DNA of 41,079 nt from Kiloniella laminariae (GTDB lineage: Bacteria > Pseudomonadota > Alphaproteobacteria > Kiloniellales > Kiloniellaceae): NCBI RefSeq assembly GCF_027214005.1, contig NZ_JAPWGY010000014.1, forward strand, positions 1-41,079. The letters run 5' to 3'. Made by a program: the position numbers and the translations under genes. Under the pieces are notes generated by a model. The model searched no databases. It was not told the origin of the DNA and saw only the letters and a list, made by a program, of their open reading frames with translations. Below, piece by piece: positions 3,762 through 26,767 of this stretch (positions within the stretch are counted from its first letter, which is position 1; each line of letters starts with the position of its first letter).

Positions 3762-4442
3762 CTACCAGGGGATAATACTTCCATCATAATTAAAAAATTT
3801 GCCTGTATCTGCCTCAGTCACCTTGGTGATAACCTTGCGCAGGCCGGATACAGATTTTGAAATACTTACAGGAGCATCCTCTCCGCCCATATCTGTCTGA
3901 ACATGCCCGGGATGAACTGCGATAACAGAAATACCTTTTTCCTGAAGATCAATGGCAAGGCTTTTACTCACCATGTTCAATGCAGCCTTGGAAGAGCGAT
4001 AGACATACCCGCCCCCGCTTTCGTTCGCAGACAGCGAGCCCATCTTGCTTGAGATATTGACAATCAGGCGCCGCTCGCTCCTGGCGACATGCTCGACAAA
4101 ATGTTCAGCCATGCGCAAGGGTCCCATGGAATTGACAAGAAAGGTATAGGCCCAGTCATCGTAATCCGTTTCGCCAAAAGGCATGCGAGGTCCAAAATAG
4201 CCCGCGTTATTGATCAGGATATCAATTGGCTCGTCAATAATCTCGCGCGCAAGGCCGGCCAGACGCAAACCATCCGTCACCTCGAGCTTGTGCAAAGCCA
4301 CATTGCCTTCGATACTTTTCAGATCAACAGCCTTGTCAGGCTGGCGACAGCAGGCATGAACCTTCCATCCATCAACGGCAAAAGATTTGGCGAAAGCGAG
4401 GCCGATGCCCTTGTTGGCACCTGTAATCAAGACGGTTGGCAC
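3762..4442 (-). CDS. Short-chain dehydrogenase/reductase (SDR)
   Basis: This is a classical SDR of 226 residues with a Rossmann fold that binds NAD(P). It shows TGANKGIG at residues 7-14, NNAG near 78-81, catalytic Ser131, and Tyr148 and Lys152 in YRSSK. The IAVHPGHVQTDM segment after the active site is typical of the carbonyl-reductase/C-factor-like group. The substrate is unknown. I chose the GTG at 4442 because AAGGAG lies seven bases upstream and the product then starts directly at the first beta strand; an upstream ATG at 4472 would add ten residues across that ribosome binding site. The gene ends 23 bp before the acyl-CoA dehydrogenase and may be cotranscribed with it. Confidence 0.85.
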   Translation of the reverse strand: MPTVLITGANKGIGLAFAKSFAVDGWKVHACCRQPDKAVDLKSIEGNVALHKLEVTDGLRLAGLAREIIDEPIDILINNAGYFGPRMPFGETDYDDWAYTFLVNSMGPLRMAEHFVEHVARSERRLIVNISSKMGSLSANESGGGYVYRSSKAALNMVSKSLAIDLQEKGISVIAVHPGHVQTDMGGEDAPVSISKSVSGLRKVITKVTEADTGKFFNYDGSIIPW

Positions 4443-4556
4443 GCAGCCACTCCTTAGAAGTTTATCTTTCAAGGCCAGAAAGCCCTACAGGCGCACCTTA
4501 CGCCTTTCACTGAATCAGTCAATAAAGACAGGGTCTTGTTCAGGAAAATGTTATTT

Positions 4557-4693: not shown

Positions 4694-6088
4694 TCAGAGA
4701 AGAAAAAATGTCGCCAGACCGAGAAAAGCAAAAAATCCGATGATGTCGGTCACCGTGGTCAGAAAAACTGACGATGCAACAGCCGGATCAACTTTAAAAT
4801 GTTCCAGCCCCAGTGGAATGAGAGCCCCACAGAGTCCGGCAACAACCATATTGATAATCATGGCGGCAGCAATAACCAGCGCCAGATCCGGCTGCCCGAA
4901 CCAGAGCCAGGCAACAGTTCCCGTCAGGAGCGCAAAAAGCCCTCCATTGATAAAGCCGATAATCAGTTCTTTGCTGATAAAACGGGATGCGTTGATCTCA
5001 GACAGGTTTTTCATGGCAAGCGAGCGGACTGCAACTGTCAGGGTTTGCGTTCCTGCATTTCCCCCCATCGAAGCGACAATCGGCATGAGCACAGCCAGAG
5101 CGACAACCTTTTCAATTGTAGCATCAAACAGCCCGATCACAGCTGAGGCGAGCACAGCAGTGACAAGATTGACCGCGAGCCAGGTAAAGCGGGATTTTGT
5201 GGTATCCGCGACATCATCATAAAAATCAGCCTCGTTCACCCCGCCCATTTTCATAAGGTCATCGCCAGCCTCTTCATCGATCACGTCGACCACGTCATCA
5301 ATGGTAATCACCCCGACCAGACGGCCACTTTTTTCCACCACCGGAGCAGAGATGAGATCATATTGCCGGAACATGTGCGCCACATCTTCCTGATCCAGAT
5401 CCAGCGGGATCACCCGCATGTCTTCTTCCATAATCTGGTCAAGGCGCACAGAACGCACAGAACGCATCATCCGGCTGGCAGGAATGAACCCGACGGGATG
5501 GTGCCGGGGATCAACAATATAGATATCGTAAAAATCATCAGGCAGGCTGTCTGTTACCCGCATGTAGTCTATGGTTTCCCCAACGGTCCAGACCGAGGGC
5601 ACCGCGACAATTTCGCGTTGCATCAAACGACCGGCTGAATCCTCGGGGTAACTGAGACTTTCCTCGATTACCCTCCGATAGGCCTGGGGCAGAGCCGCAA
5701 GAATGCGGATCCGCATGTCTTCATCGAGCTCCTGGACAAGCTCAACGGCGTCATCACTGTCCAGCGCCTGAACCAGCTTGGCAAAGCCCGCCGGCCCCAG
5801 CCATTCGACAATCTCTTCCCGAACGGTCTCATCAAGATAGGGAAGAATTTCCGGATCAAACCCGGCCCCCATGATTTCCATGAGCAGTTGGCGTTCTTCG
5901 CGACCAAGACTTTCCAGAAGGTCAGCCGTGTCGGCTTCGTGAAGACCTTCAACCAGATCTTCAACTTCGGCAACACGGCTTTCTTCAAGGGCATCTTCAA
6001 CAGCGTGAAACAGATCCGCTGAAAAGCCGTAGCCCTCGTCTTCGGGGGGATTCTGGGTCTGATTCTCGTCTTTCAGATCTTCGCTCAT
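4694..6088 (-). CDS. mgtE: Magnesium transporter MgtE
   Basis: This 464-residue inner-membrane Mg2+ channel has the complete MgtE layout. An acidic N-terminal helical MgtE_N domain covers about 30-135, a pair of CBS domains about 145-270, and the plug helix leads into about five transmembrane helices from residue 300 to the end. Pore-region sequence such as PIVASMGGNAGTQT matches the conserved family stretch that lines the Mg2+ path. In characterised MgtE the cytosolic domains sense Mg2+ and close the pore when the ion is abundant. The gene is about 70 bp upstream of the maeB stop on the same strand. Nothing is missing or broken. Confidence 0.95.
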   Translation of the reverse strand: MSEDLKDENQTQNPPEDEGYGFSADLFHAVEDALEESRVAEVEDLVEGLHEADTADLLESLGREERQLLMEIMGAGFDPEILPYLDETVREEIVEWLGPAGFAKLVQALDSDDAVELVQELDEDMRIRILAALPQAYRRVIEESLSYPEDSAGRLMQREIVAVPSVWTVGETIDYMRVTDSLPDDFYDIYIVDPRHHPVGFIPASRMMRSVRSVRLDQIMEEDMRVIPLDLDQEDVAHMFRQYDLISAPVVEKSGRLVGVITIDDVVDVIDEEAGDDLMKMGGVNEADFYDDVADTTKSRFTWLAVNLVTAVLASAVIGLFDATIEKVVALAVLMPIVASMGGNAGTQTLTVAVRSLAMKNLSEINASRFISKELIIGFINGGLFALLTGTVAWLWFGQPDLALVIAAAMIINMVVAGLCGALIPLGLEHFKVDPAVASSVFLTTVTDIIGFFAFLGLATFFLL

Positions 6089-6160
6089 CTGCTACCCCCC
6101 TTGTATTCCCGTTACTTCATCCACCGCTTGCGCGATGCACAGGCGAAGACTCCAAGGCGT

Positions 6161-8446
6161 CTATTTGACTTTGCGCCTTTCTCTGTTCTGAGCATCAACT
6201 ACCGCAATCGCGGTCATGTTCACAACCCCCCTGCCCGTTACCGAGGCTGTAAGAATATGGGCAGGCTGGGCCGTCCCCACAAGGATGGGACCAACGGGCA
6301 GGCCGTCTTCAACTGTTTTCAACAGGTTAAAGGCAATGTTTGCCGCATCAAGTGTCGGAAAAATCAAAAGATTGGCAGGCCCGGTCAAGTTGGAATTTGG
6401 GAAAACCCTTTGTCTGAGCTCAACATCCAGAGCCGCATCTGCATGCATTTCCCCATCCACCTCAAGACCAGGTGCCCGCTCGGCAATCAGGGAAAGTGCC
6501 TTGCGAACCTTACAGGCGGATTCGCTATTGGAACTGCCGAAGTTGGAATGTGACAAAAGCGCAACCCGTGGCTCGATTCCAAAACGGCTGACATGTTTTG
6601 CGGCCAAGATCGTCGTTTCGGCGATCTGTTCCGATGTCGGATTTTCGGTAACATAGGTATCGGCCATAAAATAGGTGCCGCGCTGCATCAGCAAAAGGTT
6701 CAAGGAAGAAAGATCACTCACGCCTTCCTGCAAACCAATTACACCACGAATATGATTAAGATGACGATGGTAACTGCCGGTTACACCACAGATCATGGCG
6801 TCGGCATCCCCCAGATAAACCGCCAGTGCAGCGATAACTGTGTTGCGGGTTCTGACAATCACCTTGGCATTTTCAGGAGAAATTCCCTTGCGTTCCATCC
6901 GCTGGTGATAGGTGGTCCAGTAATCATTAAAGCGGGGATCATCGTTGGGATTTATGATCTCAAAATCCTTGCCAACCGTCAGTTTGATCCCGACGCGGTC
7001 AAGCCGCATCTGAACCACATCCGGACGGCCAACGACAATAGGAACAGCCAGCTTTTCATCCAGGGCAACCTGGACCGCGCGGAGAACCCTTTCGTCCTCG
7101 CCTTCTGCATAGATCACACGTTTGGGATCATTTTTTGCCCGCTCGAAGATCGGCTTCATCACCAGCCCAGAACGATAGACAAATCGGCTCAGTTTTTCGC
7201 GGTAAGCGTCAAGATCCTCCAGCGGACGGGTAGCAACACCCGTTTCCATGGCTGCCTTGGCCACAGCAGGTGCAATGATCGAGATCAGGCGCGGATCAAA
7301 CGGACTTGGGATTATGTATTCCGGGCCAAAGTTTTTGGCTTCGCCCCCCATGGCCTTGATAACAATCTCGTCCTGCTCTTCCATCGCCAGATCGGCGATA
7401 GCCTTCACACAGGCAACTTTCATCTCTTCGTTGATTGCGGTTGCCCCAACATCAAGAGCGCCCCTGAAAATATAGGGGAAACAAAGAACATTATTCACCT
7501 GGTTCGGATAATCAGACCGCCCCGTCGCCATAATGGCATCATCGCGAATGGCCTTGACCTCTTCCGGCATGATTTCTGGCGTCGGGTTGGCCAGCGCCAT
7601 GATAATCGGGTTGGCTGCCATGGATCTGACATAGTCGGGTTTAAGAACGCCTGGTGCAGACAAACCAAGGAAAATATCTGCCCCGTCAATCACATCTGCC
7701 AGCGTTCGGGCCTCGGTTTCCTGAGCGAACACAGATTTCCAGGGATCCATCAACTTTTCGCGTCCCTTGTAGACGACGCCCTCAATATCCGTAACCCAGA
7801 TATTTTTGCGATCAAATCCAAGCGAGACGAGAAGATTGAGACACGCCAGCGCAGCAGCCCCAGCTCCGGAGGCAACGACCTTGACCTGTTTCATATCCTT
7901 GTTAACCAGACGCAAGGCATTATAGATCGCAGCAGCGACGATAATGGCCGTTCCATGCTGATCATCATGGAAGACCGGTATCTTCATCTTCTTGCGCAAG
8001 GCATCCTCGACAATGAAGCATTCCGGGGCCTTGATATCTTCAAGATTGATCCCGCCAAAGGTCGGCTCCAGCGCCGCAATCACAGAAATCAGACGATCTG
8101 GATCTTTTTCATCAATTTCAATGTCAAAAACATCAATGCCGGCGAATTTCTTGAAAAGAACCGCCTTTCCTTCCATCACAGGCTTTGCCGCCAGCGGGCC
8201 AATCGCGCCGAGCCCCAGTACCGCCGTACCATTCGTGATAACCCCGACAAGATTTCCCCTTGCCGTCACCGTTGAGGCCTCTGCCGGATCTTCGACAATC
8301 ACTTCACAGGCGGCAGCAACGCCCGGAGAATAGGCCAAAGCCAGATCCCGCTGGTTACCGAGAGGTTTGGTTGCCGAAATTTCCAATTTTCCTGGAGTGG
8401 GATAACGGTGATAAAACAGTGCGGCATCGCGCAGGTCTTGCGTCAT
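6161..8446 (-). CDS. maeB: NADP-dependent malic enzyme, MaeB type with phosphotransacetylase-like domain
   Basis: This 761-residue protein decarboxylates malate to pyruvate with NADP+ as acceptor. The N-terminal half is the malic enzyme catalytic and NAD(P)-binding region, with [10 protein letters not shown], Lys94 in [10 protein letters not shown], acidic metal ligands around 136-137, and HDDQHGTA at about 160-167. The C-terminal half, from about residue 440, is a phosphate acetyltransferase-like domain ([13 protein letters not shown] onward); in this fusion family it binds acetyl-CoA and is regulatory. I chose the ATG at 8446 because AAGGAG lies eleven bases upstream and the N terminus then matches the family; a longer frame to 8641 would run into the divergent lipB gene. 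Confidence 0.95.
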
Positions 8447-8616
8447 AAACTTTATTGCTCCTTGGGGCAGGCAGTACCCTGTGTATTTTCGATATTTATT
8501 CGTCAGACTGCCGGGGAAGCAGCATGCTTGCCAGTGATGGTCTTGACAGAGTGGCGCCGAAGCGCGACACCCTGTCGTGATTAAAACATAACAACTGCCC
8601 CGCTGCCATAGACAGG
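8447..8616. promoter_or_regulatory. Divergent maeB/lipB intergenic region
   Basis: This 170-bp gap separates divergently transcribed maeB (minus) and lipB (plus), so it should hold at least two promoters. I found a TTGACA at about 8543-8548 on the plus strand but no acceptable -10 at 16-18 bases from it, and a small CGACA/TGTCG inverted repeat nearby. No precise promoter is claimed. Confidence 0.45.
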
Positions 8617-9309
8617 ATGAGCAAAATCTTGAAAAATTCACAGGTGATTACAAAAGGTGATCTGGGAATCGAATGGAGAAATTCGGAAAGTCCTGTCGAT
8701 TATCCCGAAGCCCTTGATTTCATGGATCAACGCGTTGGGGAAATTTTCACCCGAACAGCGCCCCAGACTGTCTGGCTGCTCGAGCACCCTTCCCTCTACA
8801 CCGCAGGTACATCTGCCGATTCCAGCGATCTGCTCGAGCCAGACCGCTTCCCTGTTTTTAATGCCGGACGCGGTGGACAATATACCTACCACGGGCCAGG
8901 ACAGCGCGTCGCCTACGTCATGCTTGATCTTAACCTGTACAACAAGGATGTGAGAAAGTTCGTATTCAACCTGGAAGAATGGGTTATCCGGACACTTGCC
9001 AAGTTCAATATTCGCGGAGAGCGCCGCGAAGGGCGCGTTGGAATCTGGATTGACCGTGGTAATGGCCGGGAGGACAAGATTGCAGCCATAGGTGTCCGGG
9101 TCCGCAAGTGGGTCTCGTTCCACGGCATTTCTATCAATCTGGACCCCGAGCTATCCCATTTTCAAGGCATTGTCCCCTGTGGCATCAACGAACACGGCGT
9201 GACATCTCTGGTTGATCTCGGCCTTTGTGTCTCTATGGAAGATCTCGATGTTGCGCTGAAAGAAGCCTTTTACGAGGTATTTGTTCCGACACTCTCCTCT
9301 TCTGTCTGA
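8617..9309 (+). CDS. lipB: Octanoyltransferase LipB
   Basis: This 230-residue cytoplasmic enzyme transfers octanoyl from acyl carrier protein to lipoyl domains, the first step of lipoate assembly on pyruvate and 2-oxoglutarate dehydrogenases and the glycine cleavage H protein. The family signature [12 protein letters not shown] is at residues 85-96. The catalytic pair is present: Lys154 in [10 protein letters not shown] and Cys188 in GIVPCGI. It is the only plus-strand gene in the first 20 kb. It diverges from maeB and converges on the acylphosphatase gene with only 24 bp between stops. The ATG has only a weak upstream AGG, so the start is slightly less certain than the identity. Confidence 0.95.
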
Positions 9310-9333
9310 ACAGTCTTCGTAAAGTGGACCTGC

Positions 9334-9618
9334 TTATCCATCCTCAAGTTTGCTAAAGGTTTTATCAGCACTGAGTTGTGAACTATCAGGCTCTGTTACT
9401 ATCGCAGTCACATGAGCCAACTCAGGGCCGGTCTGGCAGGCCAGCAACATCTGGTCGACAATATCGTCCTCGCCACAAAAAACAGCTTCTACCTGCCCAC
9501 TTGCCAGGTTGCGTACCCAGCCCGACAGGCCCAGAGCGCTTGCTGTATTAACTGTCCAGCGCCGATACCAGACCCCTTGGACACGCCCCGAAATCAACAC
9601 TCTGATCTGTTTAGAAAT
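9334..9618 (-). CDS. Acylphosphatase, possibly starting at ATT
   Basis: This small cytoplasmic enzyme hydrolyses acyl phosphates. The acylphosphatase signature GRVQGVWYR near the N terminus supplies the catalytic Arg, and the Asn in GWVRNLASGQVEA is the second catalytic residue. The conventional start would be GTG at 9598-9600, giving 88 residues, but no ribosome binding site precedes it and the first beta strand would be clipped. Six codons upstream, ATT at 9616-9618 is preceded by AGGAG with seven-base spacing and gives the N terminus MSKQIRVLISGRV, which is normal for the family (94 residues). I report the ATT start as more likely. Identity is secure, start provisional. Confidence 0.85.
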   Translation of the reverse strand: MSKQIRVLISGRVQGVWYRRWTVNTASALGLSGWVRNLASGQVEAVFCGEDDIVDQMLLACQTGPELAHVTAIVTEPDSSQLSADKTFSKLEDG

Positions 9619-21390: not shown

Positions 21391-22956
21391 ATGAGTAATG
21401 CCCCTCTTAAAAAGACCAAAGCTTTCTGGAATGTTGGCAGAAAGATTTTTGTGGTCTCAGTGTCAATAGTATTGGTGCTGTTCGCGGTGTTTACGTCTGT
21501 AAACTGGTACATGGAAAAACAGCGCATCACCAAAATCTGGATAGAGAATGTTACCGTAAAAACAGAGCGGTTGGCCGCGCAGATCAGTGGCGCAGTAAGA
21601 AGAGAGCAGCCGAATGCCATATGGCATTCTTTTAATTTCCTTACCCCAAGCGAGCAGGTCACCCCCTTCGATTTACGGGTCTACAATCCTTCGGGAAAAA
21701 AGTTACTCGAGCATGTCGGGCTTAACCACAAAGCAGAGGATTTAAGATTTTCAGAGCTTCTGGAAGGGAAAACCCAGAAAACACTTCATCACCTTGATGA
21801 CAAGGGTATTACTATCGCGGTGCCGATTAAAACCCTGCGCAGCAAAGCTTACGGAACCTTGATCATTACCTGGAGCCTTTCTCCACTCAATACCCACTTG
21901 CTCGACTCATTGAAAAGCCAAGGGTTCCTCTCTCTCGGCATTCTCGCTCTCGCAAGTTTGATTATCTTTTTTCTGGTCAGGCTCACGATTGGATCCCACC
22001 TGACACAACTCAGTAATGATATGCTCCTGATCGTCAACAACCAACGCCCACAAACCAGTAAACTCTTTAAACGACAAGATGAATTCGGCGTACTCGCGCT
22101 TTCTCTTGAAGTTTTCAAACGACGCATGGATGAATTCAGAGAAACCCGGACAAAGCTTGAAGAAAAGACAAATTTACTCGGTATGGCTTTGGAAAAGGAG
22201 GTTGTGCAAAACTCCATGCAGCGTGATTTTGTTTCCATGGCCTCACACGAGATAAGAACGCCGCTGACGATCATAGACAGTAGTGTTCAACGTATTCGCC
22301 GGAGACTAGACACTCTCGACAAAGATTTCATTGATGGAAAACTCCATAAAATCTCAGGTGCCACCCAGCGTATGCTTGAGCTACTCGACAGCACATTAAG
22401 TGCCTCACGTATCGAGGCGGGAGAGGTAGAGATGTCTCTTACCCCTGTCGATCTCGCAGGCCTTCTCGCCCTGACCTGCATAAATCATCAAGACTATTCA
22501 GAACACCATCAAATCATTTATGATGTCCAAAAGTTGCCGAGGAGTATCCTTGTCGACAAGCCAAAAATCACTCAGGTATTCTCAAATCTTCTGTCGAACG
22601 CAATCAAATACTCTCCAGGAGCTTCCAAAGTCATTGTTGGCGGTTATATAGAGAACGGAAGAGCCTATATAACATTTCAGGATTTCGGGATTGGCATTGC
22701 CAGAGAAGATTGGCCTCATATATTTGACCGCTATTTTCGATCCAGTAACACTGCAGGCATTTCTGGCACAGGTATCGGGCTTTGCCTGGTCCAGTGGTTG
22801 TTAGAGTTGCATGGAGGAGCAATAACGATTGAAAGCGAACTTGAACAAGGATCTGTCTTCACAGTTATGCTCCCGATAAAAGATTCAGGAGATGATCAGG
22901 CAGAGATCATTAATATCCCCTTGACGTCCACTGAATCTGATCTTTCGAAATTATAG
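21391..22956 (+). CDS. Membrane sensor histidine kinase, first of a tandem pair
   Basis: This 521-residue transmembrane histidine kinase has TM1 at about 18-40, a periplasmic sensor region of about 137 residues resembling a single Cache/PAS-like fold (FDLRVYNPSGKKLLEH, then TIAVPIKT and YGTLIITW strands), and TM2 at about 178-200. A HAMP-like linker ending with the DEFGVLALSLE signature follows, then HisKA with phospho-acceptor His286 in SMASHEIRTPLTII. The HATPase domain has NLLSNAIKYSPG (N box), QDFGIGI (G1) and GTGIGLCLVQWLL (G2). All catalytic motifs are intact. It is very similar to the second kinase throughout and the histidine falls at the same residue number. The ligand is unknown. 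AGGA lies nine bases before the ATG. Confidence 0.93.
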   Translation: MSNAPLKKTKAFWNVGRKIFVVSVSIVLVLFAVFTSVNWYMEKQRITKIWIENVTVKTERLAAQISGAVRREQPNAIWHSFNFLTPSEQVTPFDLRVYNPSGKKLLEHVGLNHKAEDLRFSELLEGKTQKTLHHLDDKGITIAVPIKTLRSKAYGTLIITWSLSPLNTHLLDSLKSQGFLSLGILALASLIIFFLVRLTIGSHLTQLSNDMLLIVNNQRPQTSKLFKRQDEFGVLALSLEVFKRRMDEFRETRTKLEEKTNLLGMALEKEVVQNSMQRDFVSMASHEIRTPLTIIDSSVQRIRRRLDTLDKDFIDGKLHKISGATQRMLELLDSTLSASRIEAGEVEMSLTPVDLAGLLALTCINHQDYSEHHQIIYDVQKLPRSILVDKPKITQVFSNLLSNAIKYSPGASKVIVGGYIENGRAYITFQDFGIGIAREDWPHIFDRYFRSSNTAGISGTGIGLCLVQWLLELHGGAITIESELEQGSVFTVMLPIKDSGDDQAEIINIPLTSTESDLSKL

Positions 22957-23284
22957 ACCTCCCCAGGTTTGCAGACAGACAGAATCAGTATGAAGCCAGG
23001 GCTTGATTTTTTGGTTCAATCTACAGTTATAATTCTTATTTTTGACGTAAATCTTTCAACAGAAGACTCATTGGAAATGGTTAATTTTTCCTTTATTTAA
23101 AGAAACTTAAGCTAACGACTGAAGGTTGTATTTTATCCAATAAAGTTGTAAAGTTACTCATGATAACCAAACTGAAGATGTTTTTGATACAGTCTTGAAA
23201 TATCGCCTCTGTCAAGACCAGGCGTTGGCCCCAGATTACCCCTTCTGCTGCCAAGGAAGTTATCAACAGGAGATAACGGCTCGG
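22957..23284. other. AT-rich gap between the two kinase genes
   Basis: This 328-bp stretch has no gene and is markedly richer in A+T than the flanking kinases. It contains a plausible sigma70-type promoter, described separately, and long poly-T/poly-A patches. No clear U-tract hairpin follows the first kinase, so readthrough from it into the second remains possible. Confidence 0.5.
23003..23033 (+). promoter_or_regulatory. Candidate sigma70-type promoter for the second kinase and response regulator
   Basis: A perfect TATAAT (23028-23033) is preceded at 19 bases by TTGATT (23003-23008). The spacing is longer than ideal and the -35 is only four of six. If used, it gives a leader of roughly 245 bases before the second kinase. 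Low-confidence call. Confidence 0.3.
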
Positions 23285-24874
23285 ATGAATGAAATCACGT
23301 TCAACAAACCAAAAACCTTCTGGAACGTTGGAAGAAAGGTCTGCCTGATTGCGGTAAGCGGCACTTCATTACTCTTCGCTATCTTGACTTATGTAAACTG
23401 GTATCTGGAGAAACAACACATCACCGAAATCTGGGTGGAAAACTCCATGGTCAAAACCGAACGCCTAGCCTCGCAAATCAGTGATGTTGTAAGAAGGGAG
23501 CAAGCAGACGAAATCTGGACTTCATTCAATTTCCTGACGCCAAGAGAGCAGGTCGTCGCGTTTGATCTAAGAGTTTATAATCCCGAAGGGAAAAAGCTTG
23601 TCGAACACCTGGGCCTTGATCGGAAGAATGACGACCAGAGGTTCTCTGAGATCCTGACAGGCAAAACACTTAATACCGATTATTTTATAGACGATGTTGG
23701 CATCGCTGTCGCCACCCCGATAAGGACGCGGCACAGTGAATCCTATGGGACCCTGGTTGTTACCTGGAGTTTGTCCTCCAGAAACACCTTCCTTCGCGAT
23801 ACGATAAAAACACAATTATATCTGTTTCTTGGCTTTACAGTGATCAGCTGCTTTTTTCTTTTTACGCTAATCAATAGAACAATCGCCTCTCACCTTACCC
23901 AACTCAGCCATGATATGGTCCTCATCGTCAAAAACCAGTGCTCCAAAGGGAGCAAACTGCTTAACAGAAATGATGAGTTCGGCGTTATCGCGCTTTCGCT
24001 TGAGGTTTTCAAACGCCATATGGATGAGTTGCAAAACACAAAAACTGCCCTCGAAGACAAAACAAGGTTACTTGAAATCACGTTAGAAAAAGAACAGATG
24101 CAAAATTCCATGCAGCGGGATTTTGTCTCTATGGCTTCACACGAGATAAGAACTCCTCTGACGATCATCGACAGCAGTGTTCAGCGTATCCGACGCCGGC
24201 TTGATGCTCTTGATAAGGACTTTGTTGATTCCAAGCTCAACAAAATTTCCGGGGCCACCCAGCGTATGCTTGAACTGCTGGACAGCACCTTGAGCACCTC
24301 GCGTATCGAAGCAGGGGAAGTCGACATCTCTCTCGCTCCCCTTGATCTGGCTGGGTTGGTGGCCCTGACCTGCATAAACCATCAGGACTATTCAGAACAT
24401 CACCACATCATCTATGATGTAAGGGCGCTCCCCCGGAACATTGTTGCTGATCGCCGAAAGCTGGTGCAGGTTATTACCAATCTGCTATCTAATGCCATCA
24501 AATACTCGCCGGGAGCAGAACAAATAATAATTGGCAGCTATATAGAAAACGGGCGGGCCTATATCTCATTTCAGGATTTTGGTATCGGTATTTCGCAAGA
24601 GGACTGGCCAAAAATCTTTGGCCGTTATTTCCGCTCCAGTAACACTTCAGGAATATCCGGAACCGGGATAGGCTTGTGTCTTGTCCAGTGGCTGCTAGAA
24701 TTACACGGCGGGTCTATATCTGTTGAAAGTGAATTGGAGGTAGGCTCTACTTTTACAATTATGCTGCCGATAAAAGACGCTGGAGAGGAACAGGCTGAAA
24801 TCATTGATGTCCCTCTAATTTCGTCAGAAGCCGATTTCTCTGGGGCAGATAAAATCGCTGTCGCCAGATCGTAA
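23285..24874 (+). CDS. Membrane sensor histidine kinase, second of a tandem pair
   Basis: This 529-residue paralogue of the preceding kinase has the same order: TM1 at about 18-40, a Cache/PAS-like periplasmic domain (FDLRVYNPEGKKLVEH, AVATPIRT, YGTLVVTW), TM2, HAMP-like linker (DEFGVIALSLE), HisKA with His286, and HATPase N, G1 and G2 boxes (NLLSNAIKYSPG, QDFGIGI, GTGIGLCLVQW). The kinase half is about four-fifths identical to the first kinase by eye and the sensor half is more diverged, so the two may sense different cues. I chose ATG 23285 because the product then aligns residue by residue with the first kinase; the frame extends 30 codons upstream without a family match. It ends 18 bp before the response regulator gene. 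Confidence 0.93.
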   Translation: MNEITFNKPKTFWNVGRKVCLIAVSGTSLLFAILTYVNWYLEKQHITEIWVENSMVKTERLASQISDVVRREQADEIWTSFNFLTPREQVVAFDLRVYNPEGKKLVEHLGLDRKNDDQRFSEILTGKTLNTDYFIDDVGIAVATPIRTRHSESYGTLVVTWSLSSRNTFLRDTIKTQLYLFLGFTVISCFFLFTLINRTIASHLTQLSHDMVLIVKNQCSKGSKLLNRNDEFGVIALSLEVFKRHMDELQNTKTALEDKTRLLEITLEKEQMQNSMQRDFVSMASHEIRTPLTIIDSSVQRIRRRLDALDKDFVDSKLNKISGATQRMLELLDSTLSTSRIEAGEVDISLAPLDLAGLVALTCINHQDYSEHHHIIYDVRALPRNIVADRRKLVQVITNLLSNAIKYSPGAEQIIIGSYIENGRAYISFQDFGIGISQEDWPKIFGRYFRSSNTSGISGTGIGLCLVQWLLELHGGSISVESELEVGSTFTIMLPIKDAGEEQAEIIDVPLISSEADFSGADKIAVARS

Positions 24875-24892
24875 AAATCAGAGAAAGTAAAT

Positions 24893-26692
24893 ATGGCAAC
24901 AATTTTATGTGTTGAAGATGAAGATGTCCTCAGAGAGGATCTGGTCGAGGAGCTCACTGATTATGGCTATAAAGTTCTTTCTGCCAGAAACGGCGCGGAA
25001 GGCTTTAAGATTGTTTCAGAGACCAAAGATCTTGATCTCGTATTAAGCGATATCTCGATGCCTGTAATGGATGGAATGGGTCTTCTGCGAAAAATCAGAG
25101 AATCAAACGCACCTTATGCATCAACACCCTTTGTATTCCTTAGTGCCATGTCCGATAACAAGCACATGATCGAAGGGAAGTCACTTGGGGTCGATGATTA
25201 CATAATCAAACCTGTCAACTTTGACCTTCTCTTGTCAACCATTGCCAAACAACTAACAAAATCAAAATCCAGGTCAGCCGCGCCACCAGGCGCGCCAACG
25301 GCTCCCAGTACAGTTTCCTCTCAAGCCAAGCCAAATAAACCAGATGATCGGGTGCCAAACTCGCCAACCGTGCGTGCCCTAAATCAAAATCCACATCCTA
25401 AACCATCCACCAAACCGACGTCCGTTACAGGTTCCTCTTCCCCACCTCCCGCTCCAATTGCCCCAACAATGGCAAAAAGCATTCCTCAGCCAGCGAATTC
25501 ACCTGGTGCTCGTCCCCCTTCATCTACACAGCATCATGTTGAGGGGATGAACACACAACCACCACCTTTTCCGGATGACTCCCGGTTGGTTGCAGGCCGT
25601 TTCCAGCTTTTGGGAATCGACAAGCTCAAGGAAAAAGTCGGGGATAAATGGGAGCATCATCAGCGCTTGATCCATAATATTATGGTCTCGGTTGTTTCCA
25701 AAAACATTGGCCCCCTGGACTCCTGCCGCATATCCGAGGATGGCGATATGATGGTCTGCTTTTCCCAACTGAATGAAGTGGAAGCCCGCTTTAAGCTTGA
25801 TGCTATTCGTAAAGAAGTCTGGATCAAGCTTCTCGGTGAAGAAGGCTATAAAGACGATTTAAATATTTCCACCCAAGCTTTTGAAATCAAAGGGCAAGCC
25901 TATGAGCTAGAAGTAGAGGAAGAGGAATACAGTAAAGCAAAAGACCCCTGGGATATTATCCAGAAACGCATTGAACAATCCGCCCAATCAACTCAGGAAA
26001 AAGTGGATATTTTTCTGCAGGAAATTCTTGAGCGTGCAGAAATACGTTTCACCAGATTACAAAATACAGCAGGGGATAACCTGCCCCTCTCCCTGGCAAG
26101 TTTTGATGACTTCGGGCAGGAACGACAACAGAAAATCGAACAGGTGATCGACGAAGCAGATCCCCGCCGATTGATCATCGAGGGCGCCTATATCGGCCAG
26201 ACAACCGGGTACATGATATCCAACCTGATCGACATGGCTGCTGCGGGTGTGATCATGAGGCTGGATTATCAGCTTTGCACAAATAAAAAGGAATTTGACC
26301 GTGTTCTGATGTTGTTGGAAAGCCTGCCGCAAAAATCCAGGGAACGCCTTATCATTGCCCTGACCGGTTTACCCAACAATATCCACCTGACCAAGATCAG
26401 CGACCTCATGGCAAGGCTCAGACCTTTTTGCAAAATGGGGGCTACAGAACTTCAACTGCATATGCCTGGGGATCACCATTTTGACATGTTGGGCGTAACA
26501 ATCCTGATCCTTGATTACCATGAAGCGCTGGCCATGGGACGGCATTCAAAAAGCAAGTACATTCAGGCAATCAAAACCATCAAGCTGAAGAAAAAGCGTG
26601 TCATGGTTCTCAACGCCCCTAAAGGGAAAGAAAAAATTCTGAACAGTCTGGGCGGGGATTTTATCCACATAAGGGATATGGAACTGTTCTGA
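24893..26692 (+). CDS. Response regulator with Pro-rich linker and degenerate GGDEF-EAL-like output
   Basis: This 599-residue protein begins with a full receiver domain (1-120): acidic pocket ED at 8-9, phospho-acceptor Asp53 in LSDISMP, Ser84, and Lys106 in YIIKP. Residues 127-228 form a Pro/Ser-rich low-complexity linker. Residues 233-333 resemble a GGDEF fold (FQLLGIDKLKEKVGDKW, then DSCRI), but SEDGD at 281-285 stands where GGDEF should be. After a helical stretch, 395-599 looks like an EAL-fold remnant: RLIIALTGLP for the ExT strand and RVMVLNAPKGKEKILNSLGG for the AEGVE helix, with the catalytic acids absent. No DNA-binding domain is seen. It probably acts by protein contact or nucleotide binding, driven by the two kinases. 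Receiver call firm; output call inference. Confidence 0.85.
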   Translation: MATILCVEDEDVLREDLVEELTDYGYKVLSARNGAEGFKIVSETKDLDLVLSDISMPVMDGMGLLRKIRESNAPYASTPFVFLSAMSDNKHMIEGKSLGVDDYIIKPVNFDLLLSTIAKQLTKSKSRSAAPPGAPTAPSTVSSQAKPNKPDDRVPNSPTVRALNQNPHPKPSTKPTSVTGSSSPPPAPIAPTMAKSIPQPANSPGARPPSSTQHHVEGMNTQPPPFPDDSRLVAGRFQLLGIDKLKEKVGDKWEHHQRLIHNIMVSVVSKNIGPLDSCRISEDGDMMVCFSQLNEVEARFKLDAIRKEVWIKLLGEEGYKDDLNISTQAFEIKGQAYELEVEEEEYSKAKDPWDIIQKRIEQSAQSTQEKVDIFLQEILERAEIRFTRLQNTAGDNLPLSLASFDDFGQERQQKIEQVIDEADPRRLIIEGAYIGQTTGYMISNLIDMAAAGVIMRLDYQLCTNKKEFDRVLMLLESLPQKSRERLIIALTGLPNNIHLTKISDLMARLRPFCKMGATELQLHMPGDHHFDMLGVTILILDYHEALAMGRHSKSKYIQAIKTIKLKKKRVMVLNAPKGKEKILNSLGGDFIHIRDMELF

Positions 26693-26737: not shown

Positions 26738-26767
26738 ACAAAAGGCAGCCCGAAGGCTGCCTTTTGT
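26738..26767. terminator. Bidirectional terminator between the response regulator and rplQ
   Basis: A perfect 13-bp stem (26738-26750 with 26755-26767) with a CGAA tetraloop has A-rich left and T-rich right arms, so each strand's transcript ends its stem in a U-run. It lies between convergent genes: 46 bp after the response regulator stop and 28 bp after the rplQ stop. It serves both. Confidence 0.9.

Follow-up and report, generated by a model that had tools for sequence, protein, structure and literature searches.

Proteins with dead GGDEF or EAL domains are known as receptors of cyclic di-GMP (c-di-GMP) or as protein binders, the dead c-di-GMP-enzyme domain of TipF in Caulobacter being reused for binding, and to our knowledge such proteins are usually encoded without a dedicated kinase next door. 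Signalling systems of the NarX/NarQ type have more than one sensor per regulator. In the accessible parts of the articles concerned, degenerate GGDEF/EAL receptors are described (PMC7288161, PMC6637768), FimX/Filp (REC-PAS-dGGDEF-dEAL) acts through protein contacts with PilZ and PilB (PMC7288161, PMC6637768, PMC10333796), and PopA of Caulobacter, YdiV and CsrD are cases of degenerate GGDEF or EAL domains reused for binding (PMC10333796). The excerpted sources also report hybrid proteins of Azospirillum in which GGDEF is highly degenerate and the EAL motifs are conserved (PMC5845226), and the paralogous kinases RocS1 and RocS2 of Pseudomonas aeruginosa, which act on shared regulators including RocR, with its EAL output, in an article that also names NarXL/NarQP cross-talk (PMC12051241). 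Here we analyse a locus in a 41,079-nucleotide stretch of Kiloniella laminariae (assembly GCF_027214005.1, contig NZ_JAPWGY010000014.1, positions 1 to 41,079; hereafter the window), in which two paralogous histidine kinases, HK1 and HK2, precede a response regulator with a degenerate GGDEF-EAL output. The interpretation that we favour, and hold to be probable, is that of a two-component system in which both kinases set the phosphorylation of a single pseudo-GGDEF/pseudo-EAL protein adaptor.

The regulator: an intact receiver and a degenerate GGDEF-EAL output

The regulator (24893..26692, plus strand, 599 amino acids (aa)) consists of a receiver, a proline-rich linker, a degenerate GGDEF and a degenerate EAL. 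The receiver (24902..25243, plus strand; Pfam Response_reg at residues 4-117) is intact as judged from its residues: E8/D9, D53, S84 and K107 are all present, and from general knowledge of receivers we take E8/D9 to be the acidic pair and D53 the phospho-acceptor, with S84 and K107 completing the set. No Pfam match was found in the remaining ~480 aa, even at E <= 1. In place of a PAS domain, which Pfam did not find in the regulator at that threshold, there is a 104-residue linker that contains 26 prolines (25265..25576, plus strand). Profile comparison placed the degenerate GGDEF and a linking helix at 25577..26026 and the degenerate EAL at 26027..26689, both on the plus strand and with approximate ends.

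The identification of the output as a degenerate GGDEF-EAL tandem comes mainly from profile-profile comparison (hhalign). Against a profile built from four GGDEF-EAL proteins that the window genome itself encodes (A4), two of which lack the exact GGDEF motif, the output profile aligned over 379 columns (P 97, E 1e-10). The GGDEF part alone (P 80, E 1.4e-5) and the EAL part alone (P 95, E 3e-8) were matched as well, and the reversed, eight column-shuffled and cross-domain controls all remained at P <= 0.5. A smaller alignment of the output family (A2) gave P 87 and E 4e-6. When Pfam was run on 31 aligned family members, which include the regulators of the window and of K. laminariae DSM 19542, seven gave an EAL match at E <= 0.1, the best at 9.6e-8, and four a GGDEF match, the best at 1e-4. 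Searching the PDB with the output profile retrieved 11 sequences at E <= 10. These comprised designed TIM barrels, matched as short repeated pieces (E 0.0016-0.05), the FimX EAL chains 3hv8, 3hv9 and 4afy, matched weakly over profile positions 132-360 of 365 (E 0.036-0.13), the DosC GGDEF chain (E 0.047), another GGDEF chain, spherulin-4 and a helicase.

We then compared the output with the residues required for catalysis and nucleotide binding. On the mapping of the window protein (P 93.7), the GGDEF position reads EDGDM and the EAL position LSL, and the N, both E of EITE, the K, both E of EGVE and the QG are changed. Among the metal, substrate and c-di-GMP positions checked, conservation is limited to the Leu of EAL and the Asp of KxD, one Asp of DDFG being unaligned. 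The motif GG(D/E)EF was present in none of 27 family members; among four control proteins, two carry GGDEF and a third GGDRF. On this active-site mapping we rejected an active c-di-GMP enzyme, and in spite of its GGDEF and EAL ancestry it is very improbable that the output retains cyclase or phosphodiesterase activity.

A protein without catalysis may still be a receptor. The regulator could resemble FimX, with a degenerate EAL that binds c-di-GMP through unusual residues and a phosphorylation that tunes the binding; the FimX EAL chains do appear among the 11 PDB matches, and FimX-type proteins also join REC to a degenerate GGDEF and a degenerate EAL (accessible parts of PMC10333796 and PMC6637768). 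The binding motif ExLxR, given for FimX in the available text of PMC10333796, nevertheless reads LSLAS in the window output (E to L, R to S), the first glutamate of EGVE is L and QG has become HI. Inspection by eye of the same two ExLxR positions showed I for E and K or T for R in three other Kiloniella regulators, and L and S in that of K. laminariae DSM 19542. Together with the PAS domain not found by Pfam, these substitutions make a FimX-like receptor unlikely. The first-pass annotation of the window had proposed a cyclic-di-GMP-like or protein-binding module, and this fits insofar as the output is drawn from c-di-GMP proteins and looks non-catalytic. Given the dead active sites and the example of FimX and similar proteins, it most likely acts by protein binding.

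Two diverged kinases and their history

HK1 (21391..22956, plus strand, 521 aa) is composed of a transmembrane segment, an extracytoplasmic domain, a second transmembrane segment, a HAMP-like linker (labelled by eye, with no Pfam match), HisKA and HATPase_c. Its paralogue HK2 occupies 23285..24874 on the plus strand; the open reading frame was listed from an in-frame TTG at 23195, and homology moves the start to the ATG at 23285, from which the protein counts 529 aa. HisKA and HATPase_c exceeded the Pfam cut-offs in both kinases, and in each of them two hydrophobic segments flank an extracytoplasmic domain of ~130 residues. HK2 lies 18 bp from the regulator, with which it is probably co-transcribed, and 328 bp from HK1, which at this distance may have its own promoter.

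Along their whole length the two kinases are identical at 360 of 521 positions (69%), and comparison domain by domain identifies them as diverged paralogues. Identity is highest in HisKA (64/69, 93%), followed by HATPase (86/109, 79%) and the extracytoplasmic sensor (84/134, 63%). The near-identical catalytic halves announced by the first-pass annotation are therefore an apt description of HisKA and a loose one of HATPase. Its different periplasmic domains were an overstatement, since sensors that are 63% identical are diverged copies of one domain, and unrelated sensor domains are ruled out by the same figure. Partner choice of kinases is set by the HisKA domain. The picture of two kinases, almost alike in their phosphotransfer domain, next to one regulator was borne out, and a common partner for HK1 and HK2 is plausible from their sequences.

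The history of the pair can be traced in K. laminariae DSM 19542, which carries one kinase directly before the regulator. This kinase is a mosaic of HK1 and HK2. Among 424 informative sites, those to the left of alignment column ~421-425 favoured HK1 over HK2 by 255 to 80, and those to the right favoured HK2 over HK1 by 70 to 19 (Fisher p 3e-21, uncorrected for the choice of the breakpoint, which was picked by best fit). In trees, the N-terminal half of this kinase splits off with HK1 (support 100) and its C-terminal half groups with HK2 (support 90), and the ratio of nonsynonymous to synonymous substitution rates (dN/dS) was 0.07 against HK1 on the left of the breakpoint and 0.03 against HK2 on the right. 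The chimera indicates that the tandem duplication probably predates the split of the window's species from K. laminariae DSM 19542. The simplest reading is that the latter subsequently lost the middle part through recombination between both copies, although a similar pattern would be expected from gene conversion with subsequent loss. A recent duplication in the window's species alone was rejected because of this mosaic and in view of the HK1-HK2 synonymous divergence (dS), whose estimate failed (value -1), which we read as saturation. Collapse of two copies during assembly was likewise rejected as the origin of the single kinase, since HK1 and HK2 of the window share exact matches of at most 20 bp; this is an argument only, made from the window copies in place of the ancestral copies of K. 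laminariae DSM 19542 itself.

These data bear on the possibility that HK2 is the sole kinase of the regulator and that HK1 has drifted to another partner or works mainly as a phosphatase or modulator. HK1 does lie apart from the closely spaced pair of HK2 and regulator, with 328 bp between it and HK2, and its transmembrane segments are less similar than those of HK2 to the segments of the single kinase in the relative G257, with identities of 34% against 59% for HK2 in the first segment and 15% against 48% in the second. It shares, however, 93% of the HisKA domain that by general knowledge governs partner choice, and in K. laminariae DSM 19542 it is an HK1-like sensor and HisKA that stand directly before the regulator. 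We thus regard an exclusive role of HK2 as rather unlikely, if somewhat less so than a FimX-like receptor, and phosphorylation of the regulator by both kinases as most likely, in view of domain identity and linkage.

The three genes are followed by a terminator hairpin (26738..26767, no strand assigned) with a 13-bp stem and a fold z of -6.2, common to the regulator and to the convergent rplQ-rpoA operon. The terminator scan reports this hairpin on the minus strand only, and on the plus strand the T run is the end of the hairpin's own arm. A gene for a DegP/HtrA-like protease lies upstream of HK1 on the minus strand, and a ribosomal-protein/rpoA cluster, read by eye, lies downstream of the regulator. 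Kinases, receiver protein, terminator and flanking genes were all found where the first-pass annotation had placed them.

Kinase-regulator linkage in related genomes

At E <= 0.001 the output (residues 228-599) has relatives in 35 of the 289 Alphaproteobacteria genomes sampled. A family profile extended this number to 80 of 289 at E <= 1e-6, a set whose weak end, where matches cover the EAL part only, may include ordinary EAL proteins. Gene neighbourhoods were counted in 61 output rows from 59 chosen sources, that is, 19 earlier ones (window included) and 40 more, of which 38 came from the better family-profile matches and 2 from another search. Three loci were left out of the count: L062 (the genome of L001), L058 (the place of L125) and L068 (G305), which has a kinase and a receiver on a contig that ends before any output gene. 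At L101 and at L114, two neighbouring output genes were counted as a single row. L101 stops at the contig end, where a kinase further upstream could not show, and L067, with a kinase at 2980 bases, was counted as having no receiver, the receiver-like N-terminus seen by eye having been missed by the model.

A kinase on the same strand within 3 kb accompanied 13 of the 17 output genes with a receiver in or just before them, compared with 1 of 44 lacking it. When the receiver was fused in one frame, 11 of 13 rows had such a kinase; of the remaining 48 rows, 3 did. In 10 of the 13 fused regulators the kinase was the next gene or was parted from it by a CheY-like receiver alone; the kinase of L104 is a hybrid at a distance of ~2.6 kb and not the next gene, and at L145 (G211 contig C3, 4377-8126) two convergent receiver-fused output proteins have no kinase within 3 kb. 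With 11 of the 13 fused homologues linked to a kinase, homologues of the regulator are not always unlinked to such genes, and this linkage across relatives is a property of the sequences compared. The kinase-regulator pair recurs, then, and the twin kinases do not, for among the nine Kiloniella genomes searched only one has that arrangement. Kinase and regulator occur in the same five of the nine, with a single kinase in G257, G296 and G299, and neither was found in the other four, one of which is 77% complete. The plasmid search listed 5 of 3981 matching records, all of them receiver matches at 20% query coverage and none with 80% in one place.

Gene order around the regulator took several forms. 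In G257, G296 and G299 a ~230-aa protein, secreted-looking by eye, precedes kinase and regulator; in G303, G293, G334 and on contig C71 of G341 a CheY-like receiver stands between kinase and regulator; and on contig C77 of G341 all four are present in the order sensor-like protein, kinase, CheY-like receiver, regulator. Five output-domain matches occur in G341. At L066 (G293 contig C771) the CheY-like receiver gene runs from 4115 to 4498, and a longer minus-strand frame overlaps it and masks it in one list of open reading frames. In L101 (G308 contig C52, ~4900-9400) a separate receiver gene with a pseudo-GGDEF/EAL gene behind it occurs twice in tandem.

The secreted-looking protein, ~195-235 aa long (by eye), was located at L056 (4622-5326), L063 (4701-5396), L064 (8957-9646) and L085 (9219-9806); in the three copies scanned (L056, L063, L085) no Pfam match exceeded the cut-off. 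It adjoins the kinase in three Kiloniella genomes and G341, and a chemoreceptor in G291 and G309. The N-terminus of these chemoreceptors (L085, L086) matched weakly (20-21% identity, E 4e-11 and 2e-10) an HK2 sensor query that took in the HAMP region, which suggests that kinase and chemoreceptor may have an input module of one kind in common. Of the 23 genomes of the family, 18 gave a match to the secreted-looking protein, and the window genome (G000) gave none at E <= 0.001. A CheY-like receiver kept elsewhere in Kiloniella was considered and rejected, the best match in the five regulator-bearing genomes being the regulator's own receiver (43-50%) and the next best in the window genome reaching 33%. 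As read from its genes, the window strain is a stripped version of the locus, with the sensor protein not found, no separate CheY-like receiver and a second kinase. The window genome also encodes, at L075 (contig C58, 567-1862), a further EAL-domain protein with hydrophobic N-terminal stretches by eye, which is reminiscent of TipF.

Proposed mechanism and comparison with known systems

In the mechanism that we propose, HK1 and HK2 would read related extracytoplasmic signals, and we infer that the duplicates sense different inputs. Both would set the phosphorylation of D53, and the receiver would then alter binding by the pseudo-GGDEF/pseudo-EAL part. The output would neither make nor break c-di-GMP, and most likely would not bind it either, serving as a phosphorylation-switched protein-interaction module. 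Where relatives encode a CheY-like receiver in the operon, it could be a competitor for phosphate; such a receiver is apparently missing from Kiloniella.

Several points weigh against this proposal. HK1 could serve another receiver of the genome, which has 49 Response_reg matches, and c-di-GMP may be bound through unusual residues. The fold of the output rests on profiles, and in the window regulator itself Pfam detected neither EAL nor GGDEF at E <= 1. The strings ExLxR and DDFG are present in the window output, at residues 153 and 181 of the output, even if the mapping sets them away from their usual places, with ExLxR preceding the EAL position by 22 residues and DDFG lying just behind it; ExLxR occurs somewhere in 10 of 27 family members (A3), its placement away from EAL having been checked for the window protein only. 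Finally, the models used to detect kinases and receivers derive from 8 and 3 such proteins, respectively, of the same loci and favour similar proteins; kinases distant from this set may have been missed beside other output genes.

More tentatively, and with the balance somewhat against it, the family may represent an output class whose two c-di-GMP enzyme domains have both lost activity and nucleotide binding, leaving a pure protein adaptor under the control of a phosphorylated receiver. The most complete version seen would be the four-gene operon of secreted-looking sensor protein, kinase, CheY-like receiver and receiver-pseudoGGDEF-pseudoEAL, and the window would hold a reduced one, with a second copy of the kinase replacing the lost sensor partner. 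No paper recognisably describing this operon was found in the literature searched, which misses most subscription journals. The receiver-fused members of a family present in up to 80 of 289 sampled Alphaproteobacteria genomes stand mostly beside a kinase (11 of 13 examined) and offer an entry point: the signal side can be approached through the kinase, and the target can be sought with the pseudo-enzyme as bait. Within Kiloniella, the single, twin and chimeric kinases, with or without the sensor protein, form a natural series on how duplicated kinases diverge or collapse while one partner is kept.

Among known systems, FimX/Filp is similar in its N-terminal receiver and its degenerate GGDEF and EAL. 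The Kiloniella regulator differs by having a proline-rich linker with no PAS found, by the loss of the ExLxR binding motif and by being encoded beside its own kinase or kinases; because two defining features of FimX, the PAS domain and an ExLxR at its place in the EAL domain, were not found, we do not class it as FimX. RocS1/RocS2-RocR likewise pairs paralogous kinases with an EAL-type regulator, the paralogy being established in Kiloniella and the joint action there being presumed. The Roc kinases, however, are unorthodox, multi-domain proteins from two loci with different sensory domains, the EAL of RocR is a phosphodiesterase, and Roc also uses DNA-binding regulators. NarX/NarQ shares the principle of several sensors for one regulator, but the Kiloniella output is not DNA-binding. 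The Azospirillum hybrids differ from the Kiloniella output family in their conserved EAL motifs. Unlike PopA, TipF, YdiV and CsrD, the Kiloniella regulator would combine two dead domains with an intact receiver in one protein, and its gene is linked to kinases.

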